DNA from: Pontibacter deserti
GTDB taxonomy: Bacteria; Bacteroidota; Bacteroidia; Cytophagales; Hymenobacteraceae
Length of the DNA: 64,000 nt
NCBI RefSeq assembly: GCF_023630255.1
Contig: NZ_JALPRS010000002.1
Coordinates: 62,001 to 126,000 of the forward strand
Reading direction: 5' to 3'
The position numbers and the translations under genes were made by a program. Numbering within the stretch: the stretch's first letter is position 1; every line of letters starts with the position of its first letter. Shown here in pieces: positions 48,314 to 58,660 of the stretch. A model generated the notes under the pieces. It made no database searches and was not told the DNA's origin. It worked only from the letters and a program-made list of their open reading frames with translations.

Positions 48314-49027
48314 TTACTGCTCCTGGTTTTCACCACCATTCTTGCCGTTTTCTTTGTCTTTCTTTTTAGTCTTATGCTTTACCACTTTGGCATCCTGGTA
48401 GAAAATGATCTCCTCTGCGATATTTGTGATCTGGTCTCCTACACGTTCAAGCTTCTTAATAATAGCCAGCAGTGCCAGCCCTTCGTCTATACTATCTGTA
48501 TTTGAGCGAAGATACTGTGCTATAACGTTTTCAGATTTACGGTAAATCTTATTCAGCATTTTGTCACGCTTCAAAAGCGCTCTTGCCATTTCGGTGTTAT
48601 CAGTTTTGTAAGCAACGCGGCAATCATGGAACATGGCCAATGCCTCATCAAACATCGTTACAGCCTTGGTTATTTCTAACATCTCCGGATTGTAAGGCCT
48701 CTCCAGGTTCTGGATGTACATAGAAATGCCTTCTGCCGTATCGCCGATGCGCTCCAAATTTGCGTTGATCTTAAGTGAGGCTAAAACTACCCGCAAGTCT
48801 ACGGCAACCGGAGTATACAAAGCCAGCATGTTTTCGCACATGCGGTCGATCTTTACATCGAAGTTATTTACCTTTTTGCCAAGCTTTATCACTTTGCGGG
48901 CCAGGTTTTGGTCAGCATTTACCATGGCTTCGCGGCCACTGTAAAGCTGGTACTCAACCAGATCCCACATCTCCATGAGTTTAACCCGGAGTTGTTCCAG
49001 TTCTGAATCTATATGTGCATGCGTCAT
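48314..49027 (-). CDS. phoU: Phosphate signalling complex protein PhoU
   Basis: 237 residues made of two three-helix PhoU repeats: the first around ADQNLARKVIKLGKKVNNFDVKID and PVAVDLRVVLASLKINANLERIGDTAEGI, the second around IAQYLRSNTDSIDEGLALLAIIKKLERVGDQITNIAEEIIFYQD. Both repeats carry the E-R-x-G-D metal motif. PhoU lowers Pho signalling and tunes Pst transport. The C-terminal tail is highly charged (KKDKENGKNGGENQEQ). Last gene of the pst operon. Confidence 0.95.
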   Translation of the reverse strand: MTHAHIDSELEQLRVKLMEMWDLVEYQLYSGREAMVNADQNLARKVIKLGKKVNNFDVKIDRMCENMLALYTPVAVDLRVVLASLKINANLERIGDTAEGISMYIQNLERPYNPEMLEITKAVTMFDEALAMFHDCRVAYKTDNTEMARALLKRDKMLNKIYRKSENVIAQYLRSNTDSIDEGLALLAIIKKLERVGDQITNIAEEIIFYQDAKVVKHKTKKKDKENGKNGGENQEQ

Positions 49028-49085
49028 TATGTAGCTTCTTTTTAAATTGATAACTTATTCTATACTTGCCGAGAAGTATAGAATA

Positions 49086-49850
49086 TCACCCGAAACGGCC
49101 TGTGATATAGTTTTGCGTACGCTCATGCTTAGGGCTGGTAAACATTGTTTTTGTTTTGGCATATTCCACCAGTTCACCCATGTAAAAGAAAGCGGTTTGG
49201 TCGCTTACGCGGCCTGCCTGCTGCATGTTGTGCGTCACGATCACAATAGTGTAATCATTTTTTAACTCGTAGATCAGCTCCTCAATCTTTGCTGTAGAGA
49301 TCGGGTCAAGGGCAGAGGTCGGTTCGTCCATCAATATAACCGAAGGCGAAATGGCAAGAGCGCGTGCAATGCAAAGGCGTTGCTGCTGCCCACCTGAAAG
49401 CGCCAGAGCCGACTTATCCATTTTATCTTTTACCTCATCCCAAAGAGCCGTCTGTTGTAACGACCTTTCAGCAGCTTCAGCAAGTATCTTCTTATCTTTT
49501 ATGCCCTGGATTTTGAGGCCATAAACCACATTCTCGAAAATGGTTTTCGGGAAAGGGTTTGGCTTCTGGAACACCATGCCTACCTCTTTGCGAAGTTCAT
49601 CCACACGCACATCTTTACTATAAATATCACGGCCATCCAGTAGAATATCACCTTCTACCCTGAAGCCTTCGATATAGTCGTTCATGCGGTTAAGGGTGCG
49701 CAGAAACGTAGACTTGCCACAACCAGACGGACCAATAAAAGCTGTAACCGCTTTCTCTTCCATCTCTATGTTGATGTTCTTGAGTGCATGGAAGCTGCCG
49801 TAGTAGGCATTTAAATTCCTCGCCTCTAATTTATAAGTTTTCTTACCCAT
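49086..49850 (-). CDS. pstB: Phosphate ABC transporter ATP-binding protein PstB
   Basis: 254 residues from the ATG at 49850 ([13 protein letters not shown]); the frame upstream to 49904 overlaps pstA and is not family-like. Walker [14 protein letters not shown] (about 39-51), signature [16 protein letters not shown] and Walker [14 protein letters not shown] are complete. Powers phosphate uptake through PstC-PstA. Starts 8 bp after the pstA stop. Confidence 0.96.
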
Positions 49851-49857
49851 GGTTATG

Positions 49858-50715
49858 TTACCACTTAACTTTACTCTGCCACTTATTGCGCAAGTATACG
49901 GCAATACCGTTAAGTATAAATGTTATTAAAAGTAGTATAATAATTGCAGCTGCTGCATTTACTAAAAAGTCTGCCTGCGGTCTTGAAGTCCAGTTAAAGA
50001 TCTGGATAGGAAGTACGGTAAATTCATCGGTAGGAGAGGTTGGTACAAATGGTACATAAGCCAACGCTCCGATTACAATGAGTGGTGCTGCCTCACCAAC
50101 CGCTCTGGATAAGGCAAGTATAATTCCTGTAAGAATACCACCAAACGATGCCGGCAGCACCTGGAACCAGGTGGTTTGCCATTTAGAAGCACCAAGTGCA
50201 TAAGATGCATCTCGTATACTTCGGGGCACTGCTTTTAACGCCTCGCGGGTAGTTACAATGATAATCGGAAGTATAAGCAGCGATAACGTTAACGCGCCGG
50301 AAAGAAGACTACCTCCCAAACCTAGTACTCGTCCGAAGATTTCCATACCTAATAAACCATATATGATTGAAGGTACACCGGCAAGATTTGCAATGTTAAC
50401 TTCCAGGAAATTAGCTAGTTTGGTCTTCTTACTATATTCTTCCAGGTATACGCCTGCTGCAATTCCCAGCGGGAAAGCAATAATGGAAGTAAGTAGCAGA
50501 ATCCAGAGTGTTCCGGCCCATGCGGTAAGTATACCTGCACGGCTTGCTCTCCTGGAAGGTAGGTTGGTGAGGAAGTCCCAATCAATTCTGGATACTCCTT
50601 CTATTATAATATCAACAAGAAAGATAGCAAGTACTACCAAGCCAATAAAGGTGCAGAACACACCAAACACTTGGAATGCTTTATCCTTCAGTCTGTTTTT
50701 GTCTGCGTTAGTCAT
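49858..50715 (-). CDS. pstA: Phosphate ABC transporter permease PstA
   Basis: 285 residues, six membrane helices, with the permease EAA loop in [33 protein letters not shown]. The periplasmic loop [27 protein letters not shown] is typical for PstA. Overlaps the end of pstC by 8 bp. Confidence 0.95.
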
Positions 50716-51592
50716 ATTTTTCTTGGTATTTCTTTTTAACCCAGAAGCTTAGGTTATTAAGAGCAAATGTGAAAATAAAAAGTGTGATACCTGCAGCAAA
50801 TATTGTTTTGTACTCAAGCGAGCCATGTGGTACGTCGCCTAAACTTACTTGTACAATATAAGTGGTTATTGTTTCGATAGGCACCAGTGGGTTAAGCGTA
50901 AGGCGTGGCTGCTGACCTGCAGCAATAGCTACGATCATGGTCTCGCCAACTGCCCTGGAAATAGCAAGTATAACCGATACTACTATACCCGACGAAGCTG
51001 CCGGAACCATTACCCCAAATGCAGTTTGCAGGCGCGTAGACCCCATACCATAAGCAGCCTCACGTAGCGACCGGGGCACCGCACTTATAGCATCCTCGCT
51101 AAGCGAAGAGATCATCGGGATGATCATGATACCCATTACAATACCAGCCGAAAGAGAGTTAAAACCAGCCAGATTAGGAATTATAGTTTGCAGGAAAGGC
51201 GTAACAACCGTAAGCGCAAAGAAACCATACACTACCGTTGGAATCGTAGCTAAAATCTCCAGAAGTGGCTTAACAGTTTTCTTGAAACGACCAGGGGCAT
51301 ACTCGTTCAGGTATACTGCTATAGTTAGGCCAACTGGCAGGGCCACAGCAATGGCGATGGCTGTAGTAAGCAAAGTGCCGGTAACCAACGGGAGTATACC
51401 AAAATGCTTCTGGGCAAACAATGGAGTCCATTCATCATCCGTCAGGAAGTCCATAATAGAAACTTCGCTAAAGAAACTGATTGACTGTGACAGCAAAACC
51501 CAGATAATGGCTGCTGTAATAAGTATAGTTATCACAGCCGATAACCATAGCAACCCTTCAATTATTCGCTCTTGTACTCTCAAGGGAAACAT
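50708..51592 (-). CDS. pstC: Phosphate ABC transporter permease PstC
   Basis: About 294 residues, six helices, EAA loop [34 protein letters not shown] start at the ATG at 51592 ([13 protein letters not shown]); an ATG at 51601 is also in frame but lies inside a perfect hairpin arm. The GGAGG ribosome site is inside the same hairpin (51599-51636), so translation should be limited relative to pstS. Confidence 0.93.
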
Positions 51593-51598
51593 TTTACA

Positions 51599-51636
51599 CA
51601 TCAAATGCGACCTCCAGTAGGAGGTCGCATTTGATG
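51599..51636 (-). promoter_or_regulatory. Perfect 17-bp hairpin covering the pstC ribosome site
   Basis: CATCAAATGCGACCTCC (51599-51615) and GGAGGTCGCATTTGATG (51620-51636) are exact reverse complements with a 4-nt loop. In the transcript the 3' arm contains GGAGG and an ATG of pstC. No T run follows, so it is not a standard terminator. It probably stabilises the pstS transcript and lowers pstC translation. Confidence 0.8.
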
Positions 51637-51663: not shown

Positions 51664-52674
51664 TTACTTCTTAGCAGTGCCTGAAGCAAATTGCTTGAAT
51701 TTCGCTTTCTGCTCCTCATATTGCTCGGCAGGCATAGGTATGTAGCCAACTTCTTCACTTAATGTTGCGGCATTATCTAAATAGAAGTTAACAAACTCAA
51801 CAACTTCAGGGCGGGCAGCCGCTTTAGAGTTAACATAGATAAACAGTGGGCGTGAAAGCGGGGCATAAGAGCCATCTTTTACAGTTTCAACTGTTGGCAT
51901 GATAGCGCCTTTGCCATTTGCATCATTTTCATCGTTAACCGGTACTGCTTTCAGTTTGGTTTTATTCTCTTCGTAATAAGCATAACCAAAGAACCCAAGA
52001 GCCAGCGGGTCAGTTGATACACCTTGTACCAGCACGTTATCATCTTCGCTGGCAGTATAGTCGCCACGGCTCGAGTGACTCTCACCAACTATAGCTTCTG
52101 TAAAGTAATCGTAAGTACCAGATTCAACACCGGCACCGTAAAGATGGATTTCTTTGTCAGGCCACTCCGGACGGATCTGGTTCCACTTTGTGATTTTACC
52201 TTGTGCACCAGGCTCCCAGATTTTCTTTAACTCAGCTACAGTAATGTCTTTTGCCCAATTGTTTTCAGGGTGTACTACTACAGTAAGGCCATCATAAGCA
52301 ACTGGCAGTTCAATATAGGTAATGTTGTTTTCTTTTGCAGTATTAGCTTCTGCTTCTTTAATAGAGCGCGAAGCATTTGTAATATCAATTTCTCCGCGTG
52401 AGAATTTCTTGAATCCGCCACCGCTGCCAGATACACCAACCGTAACTTTTACATCCTGAGCCTCAGCACGGAATTCTTCTGCTACAGCTTCTGTGATCGG
52501 GTAAACAGTAGATGAACCGTCTATCTGGATATCGCCTGAAAGATCACCGGATACTTCTGAAGTTGCTCCGCCTTCATCAGCTTTTTTATCACCACCGCAA
52601 GAACCTAAAAGTAAGCTACCTCCTAAAAGTATAGCAAGGTTTAGTTTAGTGTAAGTAAGCCTAACATTTAACAT
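51664..52674 (-). CDS. pstS: Phosphate-binding lipoprotein PstS
   Basis: 336 residues. Lipoprotein signal ending LLLGSC with C26. Phosphate-binding motifs: [18 protein letters not shown] near the N-terminus, [26 protein letters not shown], and later [19 protein letters not shown]. Binds phosphate in the periplasm and feeds PstCA. First gene of pstSCAB-phoU. Pho-box-like repeats lie about 180 bp upstream. Confidence 0.96.
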
Positions 52675-52851
52675 AAGCTTTGGTTTTAATTTGGTTTATA
52701 ATTTCTTGAGATAAACTTCGATTAGCTCTCCTGGGTTACTTTTAATCAAAAATATGTAAATCAGAGAGTTATATTTTGTGGTTTAACTTTGCTTATTCTG
52801 TACCTTTTTCAGGGTACAAATAGACAGAGTAAATAAGTTAGAAAGAAGAGT

Positions 52852-52873
52852 GCAATGTTAAGTTATTGTTAAC
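52852..52873 (-). promoter_or_regulatory. Candidate Pho box, pstS promoter
   Basis: On the minus strand GTTAACAATAA followed immediately by CTTAACATTGC, two 11-mers in tandem. The same 11-mer pattern is found in the porin and TonB-receptor promoters. A -7-like TCTATTTG (52824-52817) lies 27 bp further on. Confidence 0.55.
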
Positions 52874-52879
52874 ATTTAC

Positions 52880-54073
52880 TTACAAGCCAACTTCTAACTG
52901 TACTCTGAACAGGTAGCTCTCACGGCGGCCTTCACGGTCTTGTAGTGTGGCATCGCCCTGTACTTTTAAAGTATGGCCCGCTATATACTTTGATATACCC
53001 AGTGTATACTGTTTTTCAGGCGTAAGGCCTGTTACTTCTGTAGGATCGTAGCTGGTGTAGCGGCCTGCAACCTCCCAGTTTGTCGGGAACAGGTACCCAG
53101 CCTGCACGTTCAGTGCCTCGCCTGTTACAAAAGTCTCTTCTATGCCGCCAGTATCATTAACTAAAACTACCGGGCCACGTGGTGCTCTTTTATCGGCATA
53201 CTCAGCCATTGTTGAGAAGCCTTTATACTTGAACATGGCATCAATAAACAAGGTATGCAGGTTGCGCTGCTTGCTCAGGAAATCGCCAAGCTGGCCCTGC
53301 TCTCTTGATGCATCGTGGTTAAAATCGTATGCTGCAGCCAGTGCCAGTTTTGGAGTTTGCTCACGAACTAAATCGCCACCCACATAGTCGCCCTCACCTT
53401 CAAAAGCACCAAACGGAAGTATCTCGAAACGGCCAGTATAGTCATATCCACCCTCGTTGTTTATTGTAATATCGCGGCCTTCGCCCATACTAACCGATAC
53501 AATCTCACGAAGTACCATCTTGCCTACCTCATGCTCGTGGTGAAGTTGCAGACCTGCATCGCGGTCTATGTTAAAGCGGGAGTTGAGCAAGCTGCGGTCT
53601 ACAAACTGCATTTTCTGTGAAGAAATAATGCGCTCGCGGTTACCCGGCAGTTTAGTCTGTCCTACCCACAATGATAGGTGAGGGGTCATCTGCCACTTTG
53701 CTACCGCATCCAGTATAATGTTATCGGCATTGTTGGTTTGGTCTGGTGTATCATTGCCAATGTCGCTGTTGCTCAGGCCAAGCTCTATTTTGTATTCCAG
53801 TTTAGGGCTGTAGGCAAAACCCTCAAACTTCAGGCGAGCTCTGCGGATAAGGAAGCGGTCGTCCCAGGTATGAGTAGATGGGTTATTGCCACCCTGGTAC
53901 AGCACCTGGAAACGGGGAGCTATTTTAATGCTGAAAGTAGAGTCGGCAGCCATAAACTGCAGGCCTTTGCCAACTTTCGACTCGTTGATGCTCTGTGCGC
54001 TTGCACTGCTTATTGAGAGTAACGCAATGGTACCTGCTAAAAAGATACCACGTAAACTGGTTTTTAAATTCAC
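52880..54073 (-). CDS. Phosphate-selective porin OprO/OprP-type
   Basis: 397 residues from a GTG at 54073. Signal peptide ends ASA before Q. The mature barrel begins KGLQFMAADSTFSIKIAPRFQVLYQGG and carries the Bacteroidota porin O/P features WVGQTKLPGNRERIISSQKMQFVDRSLLNSRFNIDRD and the final GHTLKVQGDATLQDREG with a C-terminal VQLEVGL strand. Its place next to pstS and a shared 11-bp repeat in the promoter support phosphate passage across the outer membrane, which is a family expectation and not proven here. Confidence 0.88.
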   Translation of the reverse strand: MNLKTSLRGIFLAGTIALLSISSASAQSINESKVGKGLQFMAADSTFSIKIAPRFQVLYQGGNNPSTHTWDDRFLIRRARLKFEGFAYSPKLEYKIELGLSNSDIGNDTPDQTNNADNIILDAVAKWQMTPHLSLWVGQTKLPGNRERIISSQKMQFVDRSLLNSRFNIDRDAGLQLHHEHEVGKMVLREIVSVSMGEGRDITINNEGGYDYTGRFEILPFGAFEGEGDYVGGDLVREQTPKLALAAAYDFNHDASREQGQLGDFLSKQRNLHTLFIDAMFKYKGFSTMAEYADKRAPRGPVVLVNDTGGIEETFVTGEALNVQAGYLFPTNWEVAGRYTSYDPTEVTGLTPEKQYTLGISKYIAGHTLKVQGDATLQDREGRRESYLFRVQLEVGL

Positions 54074-54232
54074 GGTACTTGGTTTAGGTGAGAATTATAG
54101 TTGATACGTGAAGCTATAAAAGCGCATAACCCATCTGGTTATATATTGCTATGTTTAGCAGGCAGCGTGGTTAGTCAGGCCATTTTACTGTGTTGCTAAA
54201 ACATGGTGCAAAATAACATCTTTCAGTTTACT

Positions 54233-54265
54233 CTAATGTTATCCCAATATTAAGATAATGTTAAG
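54233..54265 (-). promoter_or_regulatory. Candidate Pho box array, porin promoter
   Basis: On the minus strand three consecutive 11-mers: CTTAACATTAT, CTTAATATTGG, GATAACATTAG. A TTATTTTG (54216-54209), one mismatch from the -7 box, follows after 16 bp. The porin start is 160 bp away. Confidence 0.6.
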
Positions 54266-54343
54266 GATAATACCTCGTTGAATAGCTTAAAATATATTTT
54301 TTCTTTATATCCCTTCAACCACTATTTAGAAGTATAGCTTCAA

Positions 54344-54398
54344 CTTAATATTTAAGTAACACCTGCTTAAAACTCACTTAACATTAAAGTTAAAAGCT
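54344..54398 (+). promoter_or_regulatory. Candidate Pho box array, TonB-receptor promoter
   Basis: Five 11-mers in phase: CTTAATATTTA, AGTAACACCTG, CTTAAAACTCA, CTTAACATTAA, AGTTAAAAGCT. A further CTTAAACTTCA lies at 54419-54429, 16 bp before a perfect -7 box TACTTTTG (54446-54453). No -33 TTG is visible, as expected for an activator-dependent promoter. Confidence 0.6.
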
Positions 54399-54481
54399 TA
54401 ATGCTAACATAACCGCCTCTTAAACTTCAGGTAAAATAGCCACTCTACTTTTGCAGCGAGACTAAATAACAGTTAATCGCT

Positions 54482-57277
54482 ATGAAGTTTATACTTACCA
54501 TTCTCACCATTCTTGCTACTAGCATTTATAGTTTTGGCCAGCAAGGCACTATTAAAGGCAGAGTAACCGACAAAGCCACCGGCGAACCTATAATTGGAGC
54601 TGTGGTTTTTATAAAAGGAACAGCCAAAGGCACCAGCACCGATTACGATGGTAACTATAGTTTATCGTTAGAGCCAGGCACACATACTGTGTCTGCTACC
54701 TTTCTTTCTTATAAACCATCAGAAAACGCAGGTATAAAAGTAAACGCTGGCCAGCCAACTATACTTAATATACAATTAGAGGATAACAGCACCGAGCTGA
54801 ACGTGGTAGAAGTAGTAGCCACCCGCCAGACCAACACCGACCTGGCCCTGCTGCAGGACCTGAAGCAAAGCGAGATTGTAGTGAGTGGGGTATCAGGCGA
54901 GCAGATAGCAAAGTCGCTGGACAGGGATGCTGCCGCCGTGGTGCGCCGCATACCGGGGGTAACTGTAATGAACGACCGTTACATTATGATACGCGGCCTG
55001 AGCGAACGCTACAATACCGTACTGCTGAACGATGCCCTGACGCCAAGTACAGAACCAGATTCCCGTGCATTCTCTTTTGATATACTTCCGACCAGCGTTC
55101 TAGACAGAATTCTAGTTTTCAAATCTGGATCGCCGGAGCTGCCGGGTGAGTTTGGAGGTGGCGTAATTAAAGTATACACCAAGAATAACGCCTCCGAGAA
55201 CACAACCAGCTTTGGTATTTCGGGTGGCTACCGCGCCGGTACAACCTTTAACAGCATCAGCACACAGCAAGGTGGTAAAACAGACTTTTTAGGATTTGAT
55301 AATGGTGCCAGGGCATTACCAGGTTCTTTTCCAGCACATTTAAATAATGTAAGCAGCGAAGGCCTGATAACTGCAGCGAAGCAACTCAGAAACGACTGGG
55401 CGTTAAATTCTGAAACAGCTGCTCCTGATCTGCGCTTATCTTTTGGCCTGACCCGCCGCTTTTTTATCGGCAACACTGAAACAAATAGCCTTACAGCTTT
55501 AAGCTACAGCAATACAAGCCAGTTGCAACACGTAAACCGCTACCGCTACACCGCTTACGATGCACAGCTTAAAAGCAGCCCGCTGGAGTACAAGTACAGC
55601 GATACCGAATCGAGCCAGAACGCACGTGTGGGGTTGATCAGCAACTGGGCTTCCCGATTAGACAATAACAATAAGATAGAATTCCGAAACCTGTTTAACC
55701 AGATTGGGCAATCGCAGGTAATTGAGCGTAGCGGGCAGGAGCTGCAAGGCAAAGATGTGGATGTGCGTAACTTTTCGCAGCGCTACGAAAGCAGAACGGT
55801 TTACTCCGGCCAGTTACAAGGCACACACGACAGCGAAGATGCGAAAACCACTTATACCTGGACAGCTGGCTACAACTACTCCAATAGAAATGAACCAAGC
55901 TATAAGCGAATCAGATCGCAACGCGATATAAATAGCGGCAACGATTTTAAGTGGGTTATACCATACTCAGCCACACCATTTGATGCCGGACGCTTTGATT
56001 CTGAAATGCACGAAAATACAGTATTGGCAAGCGGGCAGCTAGAATGGAGGTTTGCAGGTAAAGACACACTTGCGGAAAATCAGTCAAAACTACGAGTAGG
56101 TTTCTATGCTGAGAACAAAAGGAGAGCATTTAATGCCCGCTGGATGTCTTACACTGTAGCTAACGCAGCACAATTTGACACTACACTGTTCACCTTGCCA
56201 TTAGGCGAGCTGTTCATACCGGACAATATAAACACAAGCGGTTTCAGCATGGCGGAAGGTACTAACCCAACCGATAAATATGATGCCTCAAGCTTTTTAG
56301 TAGCTGGCTATGCAGGCGGCAATTTGCCGGTAAGTGATAAGCTAAACCTTTCTGGTGGCCTGCGGGTGGAGTTTAACAGGCAACACCTAAGCACATCAAA
56401 GTATGGCGCAGGCAGGTTAGAAGTTGACAACCCAATCACAAGTATACTTCCATCGCTTAACGCCACTTATACTTTCACTGAAAGGTCGTTGCTGCGCGGT
56501 GGCTATAGTATCAGCGTGAACCGCCCCGAGTTTCGGGAACTGGCACCGTTTACGTACTACGATTTCCAGCTGAATGCCGAGATAAAAGGTAATGAGAACC
56601 TGACTACCGCCACCATCCACAACACTGACCTGCGCTACGAGTTTTACCCGAACCCTACGGAGCTGCTTTCGGTGGGTGTGTTCTACAAATATTTCCGCAA
56701 CCCGATCGAGATCTACAGTCTGGGAACATCCGGTAACCCAATTTACCAGCCCAAAAACGCCAGCAATGCGCAGAGTTACGGTATCGAAACCGAAGTCAGA
56801 AAATCATTCCTGAACCTGTCGAACCGCAGCCTGATACAGAACATGAGCCTGGTGCTGAATGCATCGCTGATCGAAAGCAGAGTAGACCTTGGAACGGAGT
56901 CGGAAGGACAGGAACGCAACAGAGCCATGTACGGACAGTCGCCTTTTATAGTAAACGCTGGCTTATACTTTAACGATGAGGACCGGACCCTGCAGGTAAA
57001 CTTACTATACAACGTAATTGGCAAGCGCATTTTTACGGTAGGCGATAACCAGGCACCAACGGTTTATGAAATGCCGCGCAACGTGCTGGACCTGTCGGTA
57101 ACAAAAGGTATAGGCAGGCACTTCGAACTGAAAGCCGGCATACAGGACCTGGTGAACCAGAAAGTAAGACTGATGCAGGACTCTGACCGCGATGCCAAAA
57201 TAACCGCCAAAGACGATGACTTTACCAACTATAAGCGTGGCAGCTATACTACGCTGGGCATCAACTATAAATTCTGA
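54482..57277 (+). CDS. TonB-dependent receptor with carboxypeptidase-like N-domain
   Basis: 931 residues. Signal peptide ends about residue 19 (SFG before QQG). A carboxypeptidase regulatory-like domain follows (IKGRVTDKATGEPIIGAVVFIKG, to about 105), then the plug (AAVVRRIPGVTVMNDRYIMIRGLSERYNTVLLNDA, about 152-240) and a 22-strand-type barrel ending TLGINYKF with terminal Phe. Downstream, 51 bp away, is a beta-helix lipoprotein. Phased CTTAAC repeats in the promoter suggest induction by low phosphate, so the ligand may be a phosphorus compound. That is inference. Confidence 0.92.
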   Translation: MKFILTILTILATSIYSFGQQGTIKGRVTDKATGEPIIGAVVFIKGTAKGTSTDYDGNYSLSLEPGTHTVSATFLSYKPSENAGIKVNAGQPTILNIQLEDNSTELNVVEVVATRQTNTDLALLQDLKQSEIVVSGVSGEQIAKSLDRDAAAVVRRIPGVTVMNDRYIMIRGLSERYNTVLLNDALTPSTEPDSRAFSFDILPTSVLDRILVFKSGSPELPGEFGGGVIKVYTKNNASENTTSFGISGGYRAGTTFNSISTQQGGKTDFLGFDNGARALPGSFPAHLNNVSSEGLITAAKQLRNDWALNSETAAPDLRLSFGLTRRFFIGNTETNSLTALSYSNTSQLQHVNRYRYTAYDAQLKSSPLEYKYSDTESSQNARVGLISNWASRLDNNNKIEFRNLFNQIGQSQVIERSGQELQGKDVDVRNFSQRYESRTVYSGQLQGTHDSEDAKTTYTWTAGYNYSNRNEPSYKRIRSQRDINSGNDFKWVIPYSATPFDAGRFDSEMHENTVLASGQLEWRFAGKDTLAENQSKLRVGFYAENKRRAFNARWMSYTVANAAQFDTTLFTLPLGELFIPDNINTSGFSMAEGTNPTDKYDASSFLVAGYAGGNLPVSDKLNLSGGLRVEFNRQHLSTSKYGAGRLEVDNPITSILPSLNATYTFTERSLLRGGYSISVNRPEFRELAPFTYYDFQLNAEIKGNENLTTATIHNTDLRYEFYPNPTELLSVGVFYKYFRNPIEIYSLGTSGNPIYQPKNASNAQSYGIETEVRKSFLNLSNRSLIQNMSLVLNASLIESRVDLGTESEGQERNRAMYGQSPFIVNAGLYFNDEDRTLQVNLLYNVIGKRIFTVGDNQAPTVYEMPRNVLDLSVTKGIGRHFELKAGIQDLVNQKVRLMQDSDRDAKITAKDDDFTNYKRGSYTTLGINYKF

Positions 57278-57328: not shown

Positions 57329-58660
57329 ATGAAAAAAGTAAGCACATTATTACTGCTCGCATTATTAGGTGTAGCCACAGTAGCTTGTAAAGAAGACGGC
57401 GACGACACGGTAACCCCAATAGACCAGCCAACTGGTGTGGTAGAGCTGAGCGGTGTAATTACAACCGACGTGACGCTGAAAGCCGATAAAAAATACCTGT
57501 TGAAAGGATTTGTATACGTACAGGCACCTGCTAAACTAACTATAGAACCAGGTACTATTATTAAAGGTGACAAGTCGACGAAAGGCTCTTTGATTATTGA
57601 GCGTGGAGCCCAGATCATTGCCCGCGGCACGGTTGATAACCCGATCGTATTTACATCTAACGAAGCAAAAGGCTCTCGTAAAGCCGGCGACTGGGGTGGC
57701 CTGATTATACTTGGTAAAGCACCTGTAAACCTGGGCAGCTCTGCCGCTATTGAAGGTGGTGTAGACAGACTGTATGGTGGTAATGAGGCTACTGATAACT
57801 CAGGTGTACTGAAGTATGTGCGCGTAGAGTTTGCAGGTATAGCTTTCCAGCCGGATAACGAGATAAACGGCATTACATTTGGTGGTGTGGGTAGCGGCAC
57901 CGAGATAGATTATGTGCAGGTATCTTACAGCGGCGACGACTCTTTTGAGTGGTTTGGTGGCACAGTAAACGCGAAACACCTGATCGCTTACAAAACGGTG
58001 GATGATATGTTTGATACAGATAATGGTTACGCCGGTACGGTGCAGTATGCCGTTGGTATCAGCGACCCGAATGTGGCAGACGTTTCTAAGTCAAACGGTT
58101 TTGAGTCGGATAACAATAAAGCCGGCGATACCGCTACTCCGAACACAACTGCTAAATTCTCAAATGTAAGTTTGTTCGGTCCATTGGCAACTGCCAGCAC
58201 TACGGCGCAATCTAACTATGGCAGCGGCATCCATTTCAAGAAGAATACGAAAATATCGGTTTACAACTCTGTAATAGCTGGCTGGCCAACAGGCATGTAC
58301 CTGGATGGTGCAGCGGTAGAAAGTGGTGCAAACAACAACGAGCTTAACTTTAAGAACAATTATGTTGTGGCAGCAACCACCCCGCTTAAAGTGGCATCAG
58401 GCAGCACATTCAACATCCAGAACTGGTTTGATGCTAATGCTAACCAGCAGAAGACTTCTAATACAGATGTAAAAATTGAGAACTCTTACAGACAATCTGG
58501 TGCTCCGACGTTACTGCCAGGTATAGGCTCTGTACTTTTAAGCGGTGCATCGTTTAACAACCTGAGCGGTTTTGAGCAGGTGCAGTTTGTTGGGGCTTTC
58601 GGGGCAACTGATTGGACAGCAGGCTGGGCTAACTTCGATCCACAAAACACAGATTACTAA
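57329..58660 (+). CDS. Beta-helix surface lipoprotein partner of the TonB receptor
   Basis: 443 residues. Lipoprotein signal with C20 (GVATVAC) and an acidic start of the mature chain (KEDGDDTVTP), a common surface-export signal of Bacteroidota. The rest is parallel beta-helix-like: GTIIKGDKSTKGSLIIERGAQIIARG, DWGGLIILGKAPVN, and VRVEFAGIAFQPDNEINGITFGGVGSGTEIDYVQVSYSGDDSFEWFGG. Proteins of this form are often annotated only as hypothetical or as multidrug transporter by mistake. It likely binds or processes the ligand passed to the receptor. Confidence 0.75.
   Translation: MKKVSTLLLLALLGVATVACKEDGDDTVTPIDQPTGVVELSGVITTDVTLKADKKYLLKGFVYVQAPAKLTIEPGTIIKGDKSTKGSLIIERGAQIIARGTVDNPIVFTSNEAKGSRKAGDWGGLIILGKAPVNLGSSAAIEGGVDRLYGGNEATDNSGVLKYVRVEFAGIAFQPDNEINGITFGGVGSGTEIDYVQVSYSGDDSFEWFGGTVNAKHLIAYKTVDDMFDTDNGYAGTVQYAVGISDPNVADVSKSNGFESDNNKAGDTATPNTTAKFSNVSLFGPLATASTTAQSNYGSGIHFKKNTKISVYNSVIAGWPTGMYLDGAAVESGANNNELNFKNNYVVAATTPLKVASGSTFNIQNWFDANANQQKTSNTDVKIENSYRQSGAPTLLPGIGSVLLSGASFNNLSGFEQVQFVGAFGATDWTAGWANFDPQNTDY

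Follow-up and report, generated by a model that had tools for sequence, protein, structure and literature searches.

Tandem 11-bp repeats in three promoters of Pontibacter deserti very probably (we put the probability at about 0.9) represent the form that the Pho box takes in Bacteroidota: comparison of the sequences suggests that they are half-sites of the type CTTAACATTAN, with the core TTAAC, and that they would serve as landing sites for PhoB. We analyzed a 64,000-nucleotide stretch of DNA (hereafter the window; C2:62001-126000) from the 4.15 Mb genome of this organism, which is assembled in 7 contigs. Within it, pstSCAB-phoU (minus strand) and a gene for an OprP/OprO-type porin are followed by divergent plus-strand genes for a TonB-dependent receptor and a lipoprotein. 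The original prediction was that the pstS, porin, and receptor promoters contain 11-mers in exact register at set distances from a −7-like box, that PhoB-type control is likely, and that the porin, receptor, and lipoprotein are phosphate-starvation genes. The features concerned, in window coordinates, are as follows.

48314–51604, minus strand: phoU, pstB, pstA, and pstC, downstream of pstS (PhoU by Pfam; PstB, PstA, and PstC as NCBIfam equivalogs above cut-off).
51664–52674, minus strand: pstS, phosphate-binding protein, head of pstSCAB-phoU (Pfam PF12849; NCBIfam TIGR02136 above cut-off).
52817–52824, minus strand: pstS −7-like box TCTATTTG (from the sequence).
52852–52873, minus strand: pstS box of two units, GTTAACAATAA (52873–52863) and CTTAACATTGC (52862–52852), starting 49 and 38 bp before the −7-like box (matrix and sequence).
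52880–54073, minus strand: OprP/OprO-type porin gene (Pfam PF07396, 3.3e-13).
54209–54216, minus strand: porin −7-like box TTATTTTG (sequence and aligned promoters).
54222–54265, minus strand: porin box, four units in 11-bp register, with CTTAACATTAT (54265–54255), CTTAATATTGG (54254–54244), and GATAACATTAG (54243–54233) as the good units and AGTAAACTGAA as the fourth, starting 49, 38, 27, and 16 bp before the −7 box (matrix and orthologs).
54344–54387, plus strand: distal block of the TonB receptor promoter, four units (the last is CTTAACATTAA) starting 102, 91, 80, and 69 bp before the −7 box; offsets 69 and 80 are conserved.
54397–54440, plus strand: proximal block of the same promoter, four units starting 49, 38, 27, and 16 bp before the −7 box, a 20-bp step from the distal block.
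54446–54453, plus strand: TonB receptor −7 box TACTTTTG (from the sequence); a TAnnTTTG box is present in 20 of 20 aligned promoters, this one included.
54482–57277, plus strand: TonB-dependent receptor with a carboxypeptidase-regulatory-like N-terminal domain (Pfam).
57329–58660, plus strand: lipoprotein, the partner of the receptor (homologs adjoin boxed TonB genes); it matched no family in either of the profile sets searched, Pfam and NCBIfam.

The spacing to the −7-like boxes agreed with the earlier figures when it was recomputed: 27 bp from the end of the pstS units to the box, 16 bp from the third porin unit (the first three being in exact 11-bp register), and 16 bp from the end of CTTAAACTTCA to the TonB receptor box. 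The fourth porin unit sits in the 16-bp gap and is degenerate (4 of 9 consensus letters); when 14 promoters are aligned, at least 75% of them retain its AGTAA. In the porin promoter, the stretch between the strong pair and the −7 box is bridged by weak conserved units; none was seen there in the pstS promoter, whose 27- and 16-bp positions match only 3 of 9 letters each. The description of the receptor promoter held in part. Tandem 11-mers are present, but they do not share one exact register: they form two blocks (unit starts 54344, 54355, 54366, and 54377, and 54397, 54408, 54419, and 54430), each internally in 11-bp register, and the step between the blocks is 20 bp where phase would need 22. 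Three single units (54355, 54408, and 54430) are weak, with 5 of 9 letters.

To place the repeats against chance, we scored the approximately 128,000 positions of the window as 22-bp pairs, using a unit matrix built from 110 sites (107 distinct) of other genomes. The four best pairs in the 64 kb all lie in the three promoters (29.0, 24.0, 22.3, and 20.9, two of which share one porin unit), which bears out the claim that the repeats are present there above chance. The TonB array also contains the fifth-ranking pair (10.8), and outside the three promoters no pair scored higher than 10.6. Among 60 simulated windows (first-order Markov) the best pair averaged 14.1 and the largest was 22.0; pairs scoring at least 16 occurred 0.23 times per simulated window on average, versus four times in the real one. 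The matrix sites were found with a pattern derived from the window's own repeats, which makes the chance test not fully independent, and so the independent weight rests on conservation and on the identity of the target genes.

The 11-bp phase is conserved in orthologous porin and TonB receptor promoters. We counted a unit if it had at least 6 of the 9 consensus letters, and took offsets from the −7 box. The porin alignment comprised the 14 of 17 close promoters (the window's own included) in which the −7 box was found by pattern, and was anchored on that box; 36 units fell at residue 5 modulo 11 and no more than 3 at any other residue. The box is absent from 2 of the 17 close porins (L220 and L230) and from all seven distant porin paralogs (L235–L241), in which at most 11 of 18 letters match. 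Across the 20 TonB promoters of the family (own included), likewise anchored on the −7 box, 40 proximal units fell at residue 5 and 37 distal units at residue 3, with no more than 6 at any other residue. The 20-bp step (54377–54407 in the window; orthologs L198–L217) is itself conserved, as a unit with at least 6 of 9 letters is found at offset 69 in 17 of 20 promoters and at offset 49 in 17 of 20. At the Pedobacter and Daejeonella loci L283–L285, a distal unit at offset 60 keeps the register of the −7 box.

For pstS the expectation of a conserved phase was only partly borne out: of the 18 close loci, the window's own among them, 8 have the pair, and of the 12 distant ones none has it. Seven of the 17 close relatives have the pair, with a TTTG box (read by eye) 38–39 bp away; in another seven close loci, pstS follows the porin gene at 29–117 bp and lacks a box of its own; and L058, L064, and L065 have no pair, which leaves 10 of 18 close loci without a good one. 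In the distant set (L066–L077, including L074, where a different gene was picked) none of the 12 best pairs exceeds 11 of 18 matching letters.

Within the P. deserti genome, the expected enrichment near phosphate genes did not materialize: a loose pair pattern gave 23 matches versus 31 for the reversed control. A −7-anchored pattern gave 3 matches versus 8 for its control, so that no further regulon members could be detected with either pattern, and the pair plus TAnnTTTG had no match in this genome with up to two mismatches. Five two-mismatch matches outside the three promoters were rejected as candidates, as their neighbors, judged by eye from the protein starts, do not look phosphate related. 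The genome has no DUF47 gene. Two other arrays were observed in it. At C1:561.69 kb (L279, approximately 1480–1535), an array built of another unit, TTTTAATCTCn, is likewise phased at 11 bp and ends with CCTTAATATGG directly before a copy of TACTTTTG; it precedes a sulfate-permease-family transporter gene (PF00916) and follows genes for an OmpR-type regulator and an apparent kinase, and it is probably the box of that adjoining regulator itself. At C1:612825 (L002, 1501–1560), TTAAC half-sites with spacings of 11, 10, and 11 occupy a divergent intergenic region beside a histidine-kinase-like gene and near another OmpR-type regulator; by appearance this is not a phosphate locus.

Across the order, 18 of 291 genomes, that of P. 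deserti among them, carry the exact pair, with 20 occurrences in all, and its reversed control occurred once. A phosphate-acquisition gene lies downstream of 13 of the 20 pairs: five pstS genes, three strong and two weaker homologs of the receptor, one homolog of the lipoprotein, one phoB, and the window's own porin. The other seven precede no clear phosphate gene. Although the −7 box was not part of the search pattern, in six of the 20 pairs the second unit starts exactly 16 bp from TAnnTTTG, and in only one does this box lie at any other distance within 70 bp. When the spacing was left free (CTTAACATT-N0-14-CTTAACATT), 13 of 25 matches had the 11-bp period, and the control gave 11 matches over all spacings. 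Seven of the 12 remaining matches are CTTAACATT pairs with a 21-bp period in one genome (G075), apparently a separate repeat family.

Enrichment near phosphate genes is very strong when the search is extended across the phylum: most boxed genes in two scans belong to the phosphate class. Among 395 genomes of the phylum, 31 carry the pair plus TAnnTTTG with up to two mismatches, 33 times in all; the control never matched. The 27 callable genes, at 30 of the 33 matches, comprise nine DUF47, seven TonB, three PstS-like, three OprP, two low-molecular-weight phosphatase family, and three other genes; 22 of the 27 are phosphate-acquisition genes if the TonB homologs are counted. We also searched 84,980 species for boxes whose distance to TAnnTTTG is fixed, which gave at least 120 stretches, and examined 80 loci among the matches listed, a non-random sample that leans toward Sphingobacterium and Pedobacter. 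The two scans have three sites in common. The downstream gene was taken as the longest frame starting within about 350 bp, and 75 loci among the matches listed had a callable gene: 58 DUF47 (PF01865), 11 TonB receptors homologous to that of the window, two OprP, one PstS, one histidine phosphatase, one homolog of the window lipoprotein, and one ECF sigma factor. Counting the TonB and lipoprotein homologs and the histidine phosphatase, 74 of these 75 listed genes fall in the phosphate-acquisition class; among the other five listed loci, those at L114, L138, and (by eye) L094 also begin with DUF47 letters. Upstream of the selected pair, further in-phase units are enriched: 6 or more of the 9 letters match at 26 of 108 sites at −11 and at 26 of 108 at −22, versus 0–13 at the other offsets tested.

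Among the matches listed, 78 of the 80 loci are, by their titles and genera, from Bacteroidota, Ignavibacteria, or bacteria without a taxon label. One exception is the end of an Omnitrophota-titled contig, with no gene downstream. The other, L138, is a Bdellovibrio-titled metagenome-assembled (MAG) contig that carries a boxed, Flavobacterium-like DUF47 gene; this contig is probably mis-binned. L263, with a receptor that starts in the same way as the one of the Ignavibacteria-titled L112, is placed by GTDB-based grouping in the phylum of the window, and under NCBI taxonomy Ignavibacterium belongs to a separate phylum, Ignavibacteriota.

For 51 of the 58 DUF47 sites among the matches listed, the next gene could be read as well; these 51 genes are all alike, and the single one that was tested encodes a PHO4/PiT transporter. 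PiT transporters are usually described as constitutive and of low affinity. As the DUF47-PiT operon is the commonest exact target, PiT looks starvation controlled in Sphingobacteriales and Flavobacteriales. In Pedobacter psychroterrae, PhoX is boxed at 16 bp. Six of 20 named genomes had a match to the PhoX family: one clear PhoX (L272, the same as L278) is boxed at 16 bp, a more distant member (L275) has a weak pair at 16 bp, and the other four have no pair at that place. Two further kinds of boxed gene were noted. In Sphingobacterium paucimobilis (L157) one box precedes an ECF sigma factor gene, and ECF sigma genes of F. johnsoniae are also induced by phosphate depletion (PMC8115612). In two related genomes (L270 and L271), the longest downstream frame lies 6 bp behind the −7 box and resembles low-molecular-weight phosphatase/arsenate-reductase genes, and such genes may link phosphate starvation with arsenate handling.

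The genome encodes five OmpR-type regulators, of which the one at C2:297808 (L026) is PhoB like. Its best family is TIGR02154 (PhoB), at 225 bits, under the curated cut-off of 296.2; its effector domain best matches that of E. coli PhoB, and its recognition helix reads RTVDVHIRKVR versus RTVDVHIRRLR. Its own promoter has no good pair (best score 10.0), and a phoB gene 60% identical to it (L047) has a box at 16 bp. At three Flavobacterium loci (L287, L288, and L289), homologs of the window receptor and lipoprotein adjoin phoB, with weak best pairs (12–13 of 18 letters). This gene arrangement is that of the F. johnsoniae phoBR cluster as published, in which the receptor Fjoh_0545 and the lipoprotein Fjoh_0546 responded to phosphate depletion with FC values of 8.02 and 9.91, counted as log2 in the text (PMC8115612). 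This published induction supports the assignment of the receptor and lipoprotein as phosphate-starvation genes. The same assignment is weaker for the porin because the OprP protein Fjoh_0542 was not induced by phosphate depletion in the published data drawn on here (PMC8115612). In B. fragilis, PhoB binds a 512-bp pstC promoter fragment, and the pst genes and a putative phosphate/sulphate permease are PhoB dependent (PMC3547664).

Taken with the phase in orthologs and the phosphate targets across the phylum, the PhoB-like regulator with its E. coli-like helix supports PhoB-type control, as had been proposed. We infer that the regulator at C2:297808 binds the repeats, that binding depends on its phosphorylation, and that the outcome is activation and not repression. 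When phosphate is scarce, PhoR would phosphorylate PhoB, an OmpR-family response regulator, and PhoB~P would then bind the half-sites head to tail, with one effector domain per 11-bp unit, until the array is filled. The Bacteroidota promoter consensus is −7/−33. As the units start at fixed distances of 16, 27, 38, and 49 bp upstream of the TAnnTTTG −7 box, PhoB would occupy the place of the −33 element and recruit RNA polymerase, and pstSCAB-phoU, the OprP-type porin, and the TonB receptor-lipoprotein pair of the window would be switched on together. The strong pair lies at 16 and 27 bp in the −7-selected sites, and two turns further upstream in the porin and pstS promoters of the window; strong upstream units may fill before weak proximal ones.

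An alternative is that a different OmpR-family regulator (PmrA/QseB-like, RprY-like, or other) acts on CTTAA repeats with an 11-bp period, and that phosphate genes are only part of its set. An 11-bp period is frequent in OmpR-family boxes, the PmrA-type box consists of CTTAA repeats, and CTTAA half-sites are shared by other members of the family; P. deserti has four OmpR-type regulators besides the PhoB-like one, and a phased array of a different 11-mer lies near one of the five. Yet phosphate genes make up most of the targets in both scans, which have three sites in common, one phoB gene is itself boxed (L047), and phoB adjoins the receptor in Flavobacterium. A TTTAACA motif has also been published for a Bacteroidota PhoP (PMC9603813). 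We give this alternative only a slim chance. It is very improbable that the repeats are generic promoter furniture, that is, AT-rich upstream elements or −33 variants of any Bacteroidota promoter phased by DNA bending: the repeats are AT rich and lie just upstream of −7-like boxes, but reversing the pattern, which leaves its composition unchanged, removes nearly all matches (0 in the phylum and 1 in the order), the targets are mostly of one functional class, and no pair of the window outside the three promoters exceeds 10.6. Equally improbable is shared ancestry without function, with the promoters as copies or recent descendants of each other, since, although pstS, the porin, and the TonB genes lie side by side and the orthologs are related, the TAA cores are kept while the spacers drift (mean pairwise identity over the 60 bp before the −7 box is 0.49 among the 20 TonB promoters and 0.46 among the aligned porin promoters), and the same box stands before unrelated genes (DUF47, PhoX, PstS, and OprP) of other lineages.

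With the Pho-box reading preferred, a wider proposal seems to us about evenly balanced between right and wrong: a single Pho box, its register locked to TAnnTTTG, may serve the whole of the GTDB Bacteroidota, Ignavibacteria included, and an ancestral regulon may have had a dedicated TonB receptor and lipoprotein as its outer-membrane arm; PiT (DUF47-pitA) may be starvation controlled in several orders; and the TonB promoter may be a two-block, eight-site PhoB assembly across the conserved 20-bp step. Bacteroidota are important recyclers of organic phosphorus, and with a consensus at a fixed −7 distance, the members of phosphate regulons can be recognized in genome and metagenome sequences. A predicted role in phosphorus scavenging thereby falls to TonB receptors and lipoproteins whose cargo is unassigned, and starvation control of PiT transporters is predicted in relatives of Sphingobacterium, Pedobacter, and Flavobacterium.

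The repeats share the general features of known Pho boxes. There are at least two in-register 11-nt direct repeats (two units in pstS, four in the porin, and four plus four with one 20-bp step in the TonB promoter); they occupy a fixed place before the core promoter (in the 14 porin and 20 TonB promoters aligned, the units stand 16, 27, 38, and 49 bp away from the −7 box); phosphate-acquisition genes lie downstream in the two scans and in the order set; and among the regulators of the genome is one of PhoB type that has the DNA-reading helix. The core is CTTAACAT, and not the E. coli-type CTGTCAT consensus. The Bacillus subtilis PhoP box consists of TT(A/C/T)ACA repeats, a TTAACA-type half-site, with an 11-bp period in Gram-positive promoters. 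Pho-box consensus sequences differ among species, according to a review (PMC4415409). The E. coli PhoB box resembles the repeats described here in having at least two 11-nt direct repeats and a regulator with a near-identical recognition helix, but its core is CTGTCAT where ours is TTAACAT, and it works with a sigma-70 −10 element (PMC4415409).

The leading results of searches of the open-access literature yielded no 11-bp Pho-box consensus for Bacteroidota; the nearest motif was the TTTAACA of one species, and predicted Pho boxes near plcP are mentioned elsewhere, with no Bacteroidota consensus in the relevant part of that source (PMC4796936). The TTTAACA motif, defined by DAP-seq for Riemerella anatipestifer PhoP, is like ours in belonging to a phosphate-type regulator of Bacteroidota, in having TTTAACA as its most conserved letters, and in being accompanied by promoter gel shifts; unlike ours, it comes with 583 reported peaks and was likened by its authors to ArcA (PMC9603813). 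PhoP of this species also bound when unphosphorylated; "direct repeat" and "pst" occur 0 times in the main text, and the passages on the motif do not call it an 11-bp phosphate-regulon Pho box (PMC9603813). The nearest published consensus that we found is the cyanobacterial SphR box, with tandem copies of CTTAACCT joined by 3-bp linkers (PMC1906773). It differs from the repeats described here in its half-site (CTTAACCT there, CTTAACATT here), in its phylum, and in its core promoter (TAnnTTTG here), but it shares with them the 11-bp period, a nearly identical half-site (CTTAAC), at least three tandem units, a PhoB-type regulator, and pst and phosphatase targets (PMC1906773).
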